In this document: positions 12,774 to 16,088 of the stretch, in pieces
Position numbering within the stretch: position 1 is the stretch's first letter
Layout: the number at the start of each line of letters is the position of its first letter
Assembly: GCA_903915625.1 (NCBI GenBank)
Contig: CAIWTN010000130.1
Location: 1-32,065 of the forward strand
Source of the DNA: an uncultured Pseudomonadota bacterium
GTDB lineage: Bacteria > Bdellovibrionota_B > Oligoflexia > Oligoflexales > CAIYRB01
Length of the DNA stretch: 32,065 nucleotides
Reading direction: 5' to 3'
Made by a program: the position numbers and the translations under genes
The notes under the pieces: model-generated
What the model saw: only the letters and a program-made list of their open reading frames with translations
Told to the model about the DNA's origin: nothing
The model's database searches: none

Positions 12774-14402
12774 TTGACGATGCCGACCATGCCGGTAGTG
12801 CACCTGCTCACAGTCGATTCGACGTCTAATTATGCTGCTCAGTTGCTTAAACAAAGCTCTGCACCGGCCACCCCTGCTCCACCATTTTTAGTCTGGAGTG
12901 AACAGCAAACTGGAGGGCGTGGGCGTCGCGGGCATGAGTGGATTAGCCCAGTCGGAAATCTCTACCTAACGATGGTGCTACCGGCACAAGCAGACGCACC
13001 CACTAAGCAAGGACTGCTGCCACTCAAGGCAGGTGTGATCATCGCTCGCTTGTTGCAACAGTATTTTGGCCTGCGTCTAACGTTAAAATGGCCCAATGAT
13101 TTACTGTTCGGTGGTCGCAAACTCGGCGGCTTGCTGCTGGAAACCTCAAGCAATGGCACGCAATTTGGCGAGTTATTAATTGGGCTGGGACTCAACTTAA
13201 ATCATACGCCAGATATTAAAGGTGGCGACTACCTACCTACATCTCTGAGCGAGATTTTAGGTAAAGACATTGCCGTAAATGAACTGGTGCAATTATTCGC
13301 TAGAGACTTCCTGGCTTGTTGGCAAGCGCTACCCACTTCATCGGTACCCGAAGCATTTGCCGAGTTTGGTGTCGGTCCAGATGAACTTTGCTTCCAGGAT
13401 TCTCCTGATATCTCATCTAACGCCGGTGATGACGCAAACATTGGCCGGCGATGGGGACGACTCGGTGTCTTGCGTGACGACGGCAGTCAAATGATGCAGG
13501 TGTTAGAACAAGATGAATCGATAGCTCTCAGCCACGCCGATCACGGTTGGCGCTGGTCATTCCAAAGTAAAGAGCCCATGCCGCTCGCTGTCGCTGATAT
13601 CGGCAATACTGCGGTGAAGATTGCTTGGTATGACGATGCACTCAACCCAACGCCAGACCGCGTCTTGGTACATGCACATCAAGAGAGCGACGACACGTTA
13701 CGGCAAGCTCTAACGACTTTAAAACAGCACAGTAGCTGCCCATACCCAACGCTACACATTGTATCCGTGCGACCGGAGCAAACGAAATTATTGACGCGCC
13801 TAGCACAGGAATGTGGCTGGTCTGCGGTGACCGTTCGCAAGAGACCTGTGCGTCGCCACTGTAAATTGCACTCTTCTGGTTATCTGCTCAAGGATTTAGG
13901 GATCGATCGTTTGGCTGCAATTGAAGCGTGGTTATCAACGCTCACATCTGAACAACGGCAGTTGCAGGATCACTACGGGATCGTAGTCGCAGCGGGCACT
14001 GCAACCACGATCGATGCAGTCGGAGTCGATGGCCGACATTTCGGTGGCCTGATTTTGCCCGGACTTACCTTGGCCATGCAAAGTCTGCATCAAGTGGCGA
14101 GTCTACTTCCAGAAATCGCTGCAGAACAAGCTCTCACAGCAGAAATTGCTGGGCAGGGACTTGGACACGACACACGCACAGCGATGATGTGCGCCGCCGT
14201 TGAGATGACTCTCGGAGCGCTTAATCAGACTCGCACGAGACTCCGGGACGACATGCATCTGCAAGAACTGCCGCACGGCATATGTATGACTGGCGGTTGG
14301 GGTGAACGGCTAGCACCGCTAATTGATGCTAATTATCAGCCAAATTTAGTGTTAAACGGAGCTCGAGTCCTAGTGCTCGGTGGTTGGCAACATCCAACTT
14401 AG
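12774..14402 (+). CDS. birA-coaX: Bifunctional biotin ligase / type III pantothenate kinase fusion
   Basis: 542 residues, two enzymes in one chain. Residues 1 to about 262 are biotin--[acetyl-CoA-carboxylase] ligase: the biotin/AMP loop Gly-Gly-Arg-Gly-Arg-Arg-Gly (47-53), Lys105-Trp-Pro-Asn-Asp109, and the catalytic Lys in Gly-Arg-Lys-Leu-Gly-Gly (Lys116). There is no N-terminal DNA-binding domain, so it should not act as the BirA repressor. From about residue 270 comes CoaX: Asp275-Ile-Gly-Asn-Thr, Gly-Ile-Asp378-Arg, Gly-Thr-Ala-Thr-Thr-Ile-Asp414 and Gly-Gly-Leu-Ile-Leu-Pro-Gly. The TTG start at 12774 has AGGAG 6 bases upstream; the next ATG (12780) would be 12 away. Such fusions are known, for example in Neisseria. 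Confidence 0.92.
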   Translation: MTMPTMPVVHLLTVDSTSNYAAQLLKQSSAPATPAPPFLVWSEQQTGGRGRRGHEWISPVGNLYLTMVLPAQADAPTKQGLLPLKAGVIIARLLQQYFGLRLTLKWPNDLLFGGRKLGGLLLETSSNGTQFGELLIGLGLNLNHTPDIKGGDYLPTSLSEILGKDIAVNELVQLFARDFLACWQALPTSSVPEAFAEFGVGPDELCFQDSPDISSNAGDDANIGRRWGRLGVLRDDGSQMMQVLEQDESIALSHADHGWRWSFQSKEPMPLAVADIGNTAVKIAWYDDALNPTPDRVLVHAHQESDDTLRQALTTLKQHSSCPYPTLHIVSVRPEQTKLLTRLAQECGWSAVTVRKRPVRRHCKLHSSGYLLKDLGIDRLAAIEAWLSTLTSEQRQLQDHYGIVVAAGTATTIDAVGVDGRHFGGLILPGLTLAMQSLHQVASLLPEIAAEQALTAEIAGQGLGHDTRTAMMCAAVEMTLGALNQTRTRLRDDMHLQELPHGICMTGGWGERLAPLIDANYQPNLVLNGARVLVLGGWQHPT

Positions 14403-14423
14403 GATGCACTCTACCGAGCGCAC

Positions 14424-14458
14424 AAAAAAGAGAAGCCCACCTCAATGAGGCGGGCTTC
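14424..14458 (-). terminator. Strong intrinsic terminator on the minus strand
   Basis: Read on the minus strand, GAAGCCC-x-CCTC, a three-base loop, GAGG-x-GGGCTTC gives an 11-bp stem with one internal mismatch (14432-14458). Six T residues follow (14429-14424). The plus strand has the run of A before the stem and no T-tract after it, so the terminator acts on minus-strand transcripts. The nearest minus-strand gene, mtaB, ends 272 bases upstream of the stem, which suggests the terminated transcript includes a non-coding RNA. Confidence 0.8.
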
Positions 14459-14700
14459 CACATGCGGAGAAGATAAACCTTGGTGAAAAGAGTTGTTGCT
14501 TTCCTGAGGGAGGACTTTCGCCCGACACTCAGAGTCTCGGATCAGGGCCGCTACAGAGTGCGGCTACTCGGGACCACCAAGGATGATTTTAGCAGACTCA
14601 GAGGACTTTGCACGGAAAGACCTGTAACCCCTTGATTGCCCGCAAAGCCGCGTCAGACAAAGGATGTAAGCTACTGAGATTGCGCTGGTCTTTGGTTTAT
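14459..14700 (-). ncRNA. Candidate structured non-coding RNA (family not recognised)
   Basis: No protein gene fits this stretch. On the minus strand it can fold into several perfect helices: 14694-14700 with 14473-14479 (7 bp, AUAAACC/GGUUUAU) closing the whole region; 14687-14693 with 14616-14622 (7 bp); 14576-14583 with 14478-14485 (8 bp, sharing two bases with the closing stem); and a GCCGC/GCGGC hairpin (14547-14551/14560-14564). It ends in the intrinsic terminator. It could instead be a long 3' untranslated region of mtaB. I looked for 6S RNA, tmRNA, RNase P RNA and SRP RNA signatures and found none convincing. I see no strong promoter between 14700 and the mtaB stop. Confidence 0.45.
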
Positions 14701-14729
14701 GAGAGACAGTTAAGAGGCCCGGCATGTCC

Positions 14730-16088
14730 TTAGGATAGGCTACGCCCTAGCAGCCGGCTGGGTCCAACCAAGCCCTTCAATATCACTGGACTAATCGTTC
14801 CAGCCGGATGGTTGGCTGCAGTACCAACTACAGATAGGTAATTTTGGCTATGCCCCAACCGTCGCCCCTGGGCGTCCAGGTCATTCTCCCAAAGGATGGG
14901 GAGCGTCCGTCCGATGAAGCGCCGAGCATAATTTGCCGCCAGCTCGTCCGACAGGCGTCGCAGCTCAGCAGCACGCTCTTTGATCACCTCAGCCGGCAGG
15001 TGACCAGGCATCCGCACGGCCGCTGTATTCGGCCGTTGCGAATAGGGAAACACATGCAGATAACTCAACTCGAGATCTTTGATCAGAGCTACGGTATCGG
15101 CAAAGTCTTCTTCGGTCTCACCAGGAAAGCCTGGAATCACGTCAGCGCCGATACTGGCATCGGGGAAATGCGCCCGAAAGCGCCTCACCGCGTCAGCATA
15201 ACCGGCGGGATCGTAGGTCCTACGCATTAATTTCAAAATGCGGGCAGATCCAGATTGCAAAGGCAGGTGCAGGTGATCGCAAACCAGCTCGGGCTTTTCG
15301 GCCAGTGCGGCGACCAATTCCGGAGTCAATTCTGCCGGCTCCAGCGATGAGATACGCAGTCGTTTCATGGCCGGCAACGCCAGTAGCTCACGGACAAGGC
15401 CGACGATCGGATGCGCCACATCTGCCGCCTCGGCAAGGTCGCGTCCGTAGTCTCCAATGTGGATACCCGTCAGCACGATTTCCGGAACACCCTCAGCCAA
15501 AAGGCGTTCGCACTCAGCCATGACTTGCGCCTGCGGCACACTGCGACTGGCTCCGCGTGCGTAGGGGATCAAACAATAAGTGCAAAAGCCGTTACAGCCA
15601 TCTTGAACCTTAACAAAGGCCCGCGTTTGCTCCGAGCTTGCACGATCAAACAGCGTCACAGCCGACTTAAAATGAGTTTGCTTATTGTCCTTCACCGCCG
15701 TGATGCCTTCCGGCAGCTTCGCAGTGACACTACCGGATTGCCTGGCCTCAATATTGGCGGCTACCGTTTCGACCAACCGCTCCTTGGCAGCATTAGGCAC
15801 TACGAGGTCGATTTCATCCATAGCGACTAGCCGCGCTGAGTCGGTCTGAGCGTAACAGCCGGTAAAAACGAGCAACGTATCAGGGCATTCACGCCGCAAA
15901 CGGCGCGCCAAATAACGCGCCTCACGCTCGGCATTGGCGGTGACGCTGCAGGTGTTGATGACCGTAATATCGGCCTGCTGGGGATCGGTCGTGAGAGCGT
16001 AACCCTTCGCCTTAAACTGATTTTCTAAGGCATGGCCATCGAATGTATTGACCTTGCATCCGAGAGTTTTAACGTATACGCTTGCCAT
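14730..16088 (-). CDS. mtaB: tRNA t6A37 methylthiotransferase MtaB
   Basis: 452 residues. It is a radical-SAM methylthiotransferase that converts t6A to ms2t6A at position 37 of tRNAs reading ANN codons. The N-terminal UPF0004 domain has its three cluster cysteines, Cys11 (Leu-Gly-Cys-Lys-Val-Asn), Cys47 (Asn-Thr-Cys-Ser-Val-Thr) and Cys78 (Thr-Gly-Cys-Tyr-Ala-Gln). The radical-SAM triad is Cys165-x3-Cys169-x2-Cys172. The Gly-Cys-Lys-Val-Asn form points to MtaB rather than MiaB, which has Gly-Cys-Gln-Met-Asn. A C-terminal TRAM-like region follows Arg-Arg-Phe-Ile-Gly-Arg and is short. No strong ribosome-binding site precedes the ATG. It diverges from ccmF. Confidence 0.92.
   Translation of the reverse strand: MASVYVKTLGCKVNTFDGHALENQFKAKGYALTTDPQQADITVINTCSVTANAEREARYLARRLRRECPDTLLVFTGCYAQTDSARLVAMDEIDLVVPNAAKERLVETVAANIEARQSGSVTAKLPEGITAVKDNKQTHFKSAVTLFDRASSEQTRAFVKVQDGCNGFCTYCLIPYARGASRSVPQAQVMAECERLLAEGVPEIVLTGIHIGDYGRDLAEAADVAHPIVGLVRELLALPAMKRLRISSLEPAELTPELVAALAEKPELVCDHLHLPLQSGSARILKLMRRTYDPAGYADAVRRFRAHFPDASIGADVIPGFPGETEEDFADTVALIKDLELSYLHVFPYSQRPNTAAVRMPGHLPAEVIKERAAELRRLSDELAANYARRFIGRTLPILWENDLDAQGRRLGHSQNYLSVVGTAANHPAGTISPVILKGLVGPSRLLGRSLS

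Follow-up and report, generated by a model that had tools for sequence, protein, structure and literature searches.

A useful point of reference for the RNA described here is sX13 of Xanthomonas, a trans-encoded small RNA (sRNA) of 115 nt that is independent of Hfq and whose C-rich motifs act on G-rich start regions (PMC3771888). Pxr of Myxococcus (PMC5684412) is comparable in a looser sense, since both are lineage-restricted sRNAs outside the enterobacterial model, which is a likeness of kind. We have analyzed a stretch of 32,065 nucleotides (referred to as the window) from an uncultured bacterium of the Oligoflexales (assembly GCA_903915625.1, contig CAIWTN010000130.1; GTDB lineage Bdellovibrionota_B, Oligoflexia, Oligoflexales, CAIYRB01), in which the gap between a fused birA-coaX gene and mtaB very probably contains, on the minus strand, the gene of a conserved structured RNA. 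The interpretation that we favor for it as a whole, with a probability of roughly 0.5, is that of a genus-specific and independently transcribed small regulatory RNA that pairs with mRNAs without the help of Hfq. The proposed likeness to sX13 implies no homology and concerns stable stems, C-rich single-stranded motifs and the independence of Hfq (PMC3771888). However, sX13 consists of three stem-loops with CCCC motifs in their loops, whereas the RNA studied here has a predicted four-way junction followed by an invariant linker that contains UCUUCUCC and no CCCC motif. It resembles 6S RNA in its similar length and in having a closing stem, but it is multibranched, and is then followed by the linker and a terminator hairpin of its own.

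The gap extends over 327 bases (14403-14729), and the genes birA-coaX (plus strand, ending at 14402) and mtaB (minus strand, ending at 14730) converge on it; a preliminary description of this DNA had claimed such a gap without a coding gene, and its size and flanks are borne out. For the comparison we have used seven loci (L001-L006 and L026) from six genomes of the genus, in all of which (7/7) the position of the RNA between mtaB and birA-coaX is fixed. When the gap was compared by BLAST to 38 related genomes, the five others of the genus all gave a match and there was no convincing one elsewhere. The fourfold-degenerate sites of mtaB are saturated between the main lineages (35-44% identical). 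A block of 36 nt, ACAACUCUUUUCACCAAGGUUUAUCUUCUCCGCAUG (14461-14496, minus strand), which takes in the 3' strands of the helices P5 and P1 described below, remains nevertheless near-invariant (90-100% identical), and thus its nucleotide sequence is, judging from this comparison, under strong purifying selection. Within it, the 17 nt of the linker, UUUAUCUUCUCCGCAUG (14461-14477, minus strand), a candidate antisense seed, are 100% identical in all loci. Two of the loci, L026 (G003:C84) and L004 (G003:C32), are diverged mtaB-RNA-birA-coaX stretches from a single genome bin, G003, one of them on a short contig; they probably represent two strains or species binned together.

The fold predicted by RNAalifold from the seven sequences is a four-way junction in which P1 closes the arms P2/P3, P4 and P5, followed by the linker and the terminator (all on the minus strand). 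The 5' strand of P1, CCUUGGUG (14575-14582), pairs with 14485-14478; its inner pairs are invariant and its outer ones are broken in L004 and L026. The arm formed by P2 and its hairpin cap P3 (14534-14574; P2 14574-14567/14541-14534, P3 14564-14560/14551-14547) has five pairs with two-sided changes. Arm P4 (14504-14532, pairing 14532-14526/14510-14504), with the core UGAG...CUCA, has two such pairs, and 94% of its cells are paired. The hairpin P5 (14486-14503, pairing 14503-14498/14491-14486), with the loop AACAA(C), is a prediction from the alignment that is weakly tested because it has no two-sided changes; it appears in the single folds of L003, L004, L005 and L026 and is missing from the minimum-energy fold of L001.

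Taking the structure as a whole, two-sided changes are found in 11 of 46 pairs, the proportion of cells that pair in agreement with the consensus is 90.7% (slid versions reach no more than 53%), and covariation is scored at 0.289, versus 0.162 +/- 0.017 in shuffles. Against column-shuffled alignments, the full RNA on the minus strand has an alifold z of -6.9 and the arms alone one of -7.5. The core without the terminator has a z of -4.9 with the seven sequences and of -5.6 with the five non-redundant ones (0/500 shuffles were as good), while the z of the plus-strand core is no better than -1.7 to -2.2. Along these lines, the single-sequence folds of L003, L005 and L006 give the same architecture unaided. 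The single folds of L004 and L026 recover the arms and lose P1, and the minimum-energy fold of L001 keeps P1 and P3 and rearranges P4 and P5; the support for P1 comes mainly from the single-sequence folds.

The folding energy of the single sequence is unremarkable, with a z of -0.61 for 14700-14462 without the terminator and of -1.85 when the terminator is included. Several perfect helices, as reported in the preliminary description, are indeed present in the gap; given that this energy is not exceptional, helices in one sequence are no proof of an RNA, and the proof comes from the comparison. The stem that was thought to join the outer ends of the gap did not hold up. The only pairing of this sort, ACAUGC (14727-14722) with GCAUGU (14465-14460), is broken in L002 (98% identical) and absent in the others. 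This pairing, lost even in the closest relative and located upstream of the promoter, does not belong to the RNA. The more general proposal, a structured RNA that is specific to the lineage and ends in a terminator of its own, had been tied beforehand to a check that can be computed, the conservation and covariation of the structure in relatives, and came through it.

Of the gap, the RNA takes up only the 3' half, from about 14585 to 14424. At its upstream border there is an extended -10 box, CTGCTAAAATC (14585-14595, minus strand), with TG at 14594-14593 and TAAAAT at 14591-14586; from the TG to the end of the hexamer (14594-14586) it reads TGCTAAAAT. The consensus of the box, CTGSTAAAATC (14595-14585), is kept in the seven loci, with the variant TAAACT in L003, and no good -35 was recognised upstream of it. 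This conserved box is the probable promoter of the minus-strand RNA. Transcription would then start between 14584 and 14577 and produce an RNA of about 150-160 nt (14424-14584), instead of the 230-280 nt initially expected. A canonical -10 spacing would put the start inside the outer half of P1, so that this half may precede the start of transcription, which may be the reason why outer P1 is broken in L004 and L026.

Further upstream, a block of 47 bp (14603-14649, minus strand, at about -70 to -24 from the likely start) is near-invariant in L001, L003, L004 and L026 and unalignable in L005 and L006. In spite of this degree of conservation neither of its strands gives a signal of RNA structure (z of -0.5 and +0.7), and for this reason it probably acts as DNA, as a regulatory element of the promoter. 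The block contains GGTTACAGGTCT, and a second TTACA is found exactly 42 bases upstream in the same four loci; the two TTACA sites, 42 bases or four helical turns apart, are possible paired activator sites.

At the other end, the intrinsic terminator (14424-14459, minus strand) consists of the stem GGAAGCCCGCCTC-ATT-GAGGTGGGCTTCT (14459-14431) followed by CTTTTTT. The presence of a minus-strand terminator had been correctly recognized before; its stem has 13 pairs, and it is located about 271 bases past the end of mtaB. Relatives keep the stem by means of G-U pairs and compensatory changes, and the U tract is weak in L005 and L006. This terminator would also be able to end the transcription of mtaB, and in every genome the RNA comes right after mtaB and shares its strand, so that one could think of a long structured 3' region of mtaB, matured or merely terminated, without a promoter of its own. 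We regard this as improbable because of the conserved promoter-like box, which in all loci immediately precedes the structured part. Moreover, the sequence from mtaB to the box is very different in length and unalignable in L005 and L006 (there the box is retained, most of the other upstream DNA cannot be aligned and only some 43 nt separate the end of mtaB from the box), and the conserved 47-bp block without RNA structure resembles promoter DNA.

A way to approach the function of this RNA is to look at its linker. The linker, GUUUAUCUUCUCCGCAUG, is C/U-rich and includes, in UCUUCUCC, the complement of the Shine-Dalgarno-type sequence GGAGAAGA. It is largely unpaired in the models of four of the seven loci (L001, L002, L005 and L006) and partly paired in those of L003, L004 and L026. 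Neither Hfq (PF17209; positive in controls including E. coli and B. subtilis) nor ProQ (PF04352; positive in the E. coli control) was found in any of the six genomes of the genus. From the absence of both proteins, the mostly unpaired linker and the Shine-Dalgarno complementarity, Hfq-independent pairing with ribosome-binding regions appears as the likeliest mode of action, although for an antisense mechanism via the linker, taken on its own, we see the odds as about even. Specifically, RNA polymerase would start near 14580 at the extended -10 promoter, under the control of the conserved upstream block, and transcription would end at the intrinsic terminator. The four-way-junction body would stabilise the RNA and display the invariant linker in single-stranded form, and the linker would pair with the purine-rich ribosome-binding regions of mRNAs and lower their translation, with neither Hfq nor ProQ involved.

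Several observations weigh against this interpretation. A search for sites complementary to the 17-nt linker, with up to 3 mismatches allowed, found no target common to the genus. A scan for GGAGAAGAT followed by ATG gave no genus-wide target and no excess over the reversed-pattern control, and one for sites complementary to the upstream half of the 36-nt block gave no genus-wide target either; simple pattern scans of this type have low power for seeds of 7-10 nt. The invariant block of 36 nt is longer than a usual seed, and the models of L004 and L026 pair part of the linker. Regarding the structure, it was derived from the same alignment as its covariation counts, and many of the two-sided changes fall on one split; as there are effectively five lineages, the covariation is suggestive and not formally significant.

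The great length of the invariant block is also what makes a protein-binding role worth considering. The molecule could be a structured RNA that binds a protein or a ligand, and not mRNAs, with the block as the binding site and the junction as a scaffold. The near-invariant block spans both paired and unpaired parts, the scans for mRNA targets were empty, and Hfq and ProQ are both absent, all of which would suit this alternative. Still, we find it rather unlikely, given that no partner is known and that a mostly single-stranded, C/U-rich linker is what one would expect of a seed. A 6S-type role in particular is at odds with the presence of the 6S RNA of this genome elsewhere (C172:9185-9363, above the cut-off); the 6S family (RF00013) has no match in the window or in the loci of the relatives. 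Slightly more doubtful yet is a new four-way-junction RNA family in which the long invariant block serves to bind a protein, or one dedicated partner, in place of many mRNAs; if true, this would be an RNA-based regulator particular to a lineage that has neither Hfq nor ProQ. A CsrA sponge was also considered and discarded, the GGA motifs being too few and unconserved (CAGGAAAG in L001, CAGAAAAA in L005).

In the genome, the block has an exact complement only at the locus of the RNA itself, and the RNA is antisense to the 3' flank of birA-coaX, as would be the case for a cis-antisense RNA directed at read-through transcripts or at the 3' end of the birA-coaX mRNA. Yet an RNA that acts in cis as antisense is perfectly complementary to its target with any sequence, and neither the extreme conservation of the block nor the covarying arms would be explained, which makes this a very improbable function. 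Even less credible is that the plus strand encodes a small protein or a leader peptide. On that strand the block does resemble a ribosome-binding site, GGAGAAG, followed by TTG/GTG-GTG-AAA-AGA-GTT-GT; the single variable base of the start region swaps TTG and GTG, both of them start codons, and about ten residues are alike (L/V-VKRVV..F). However, the frames have 51, 51, 36, 49, 22, 9 and 9 codons, the conservation ends after those ten or so residues, there is no Pfam match, and the covarying arms, the minus-strand -10 box and the terminator are left unexplained. Frame comparison and Pfam together led us to reject a protein-coding reading on either strand. A mobile or phage origin was rejected as well, with no hits of the exact pattern in viral contigs, no phage matches and, among plasmids, a single match of 33 bases in the terminator region (E 0.1).

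The distribution of the small RNA appears to be narrow. A covariance model matched the six genomes of the genus with E values of 1e-34 to 1e-48, its best E in the rest of the order was 0.18, and there was no convincing homologue in the 52 genomes of the phylum from outside the genus (58 in total). A pattern scan gave no convincing homologue outside the genus within the order, and an exact-pattern scan of the GTDB genomes retrieved four contigs with the same lengths as contigs already found in the genus. Of 24 mtaB loci from elsewhere in the order, none has the element, and in none of them was birA-coaX detected next to mtaB. For G006, the sole member of the family outside the genus, absence is not established, because no mtaB was found in this genome, whose completeness is 77%. 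The one weak match among the 52 genomes comes from a distant member of the phylum, where a flagellin gene carries AGTTTATCTCCTTCCACATGGGCGGGCC in its 3' end (L119:1501-1627, minus strand), just before its terminator. This match resembles the linker plus the terminator (E 5.6e-4 per genome, with 58 genomes searched); it is probably due to chance, and a 3'-UTR-derived relative of the RNA is possible.

With regard to known RNAs, Rfam 15 at the gathering threshold matched no family in the window or in the loci of the relatives, and ARAGORN found no tRNA or tmRNA in the window. The best permissive Rfam matches, RF01772 (rnk_pseudo, 24.0 bits) and RF02278 (Betaproteobacteria toxic sRNA, 22.3 bits), were rejected; their scores are below half of the gathering scores (55 and 50, respectively) and most of the match is carried by the terminator hairpin. 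As far as these searches indicate, the RNA is a previously uncatalogued family, absent from Rfam and restricted to the genus, which adds a family to an already known kind of RNA.

As for the flanking genes, which are common housekeeping genes, birA and coaX are fused in a single frame of 542 aa (12774-14402, plus strand), to whose product BirA and type III pantothenate kinase domains were assigned, and mtaB matches TIGR01579 above the cut-off. The fused gene is fast-evolving (41-55% identity within the genus), while the adjoining mtaB is well kept (71-98%).

What these results illustrate is that a gap that is unremarkable by folding energy (z of -0.6) can, on comparison with relatives, turn out to hold a clear RNA gene. 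As the genomes of this genus show neither Hfq nor ProQ, RNA regulation in it, if there is any, needs another route, and the 17 invariant bases of the linker provide a concrete sequence with which targets can be tested.
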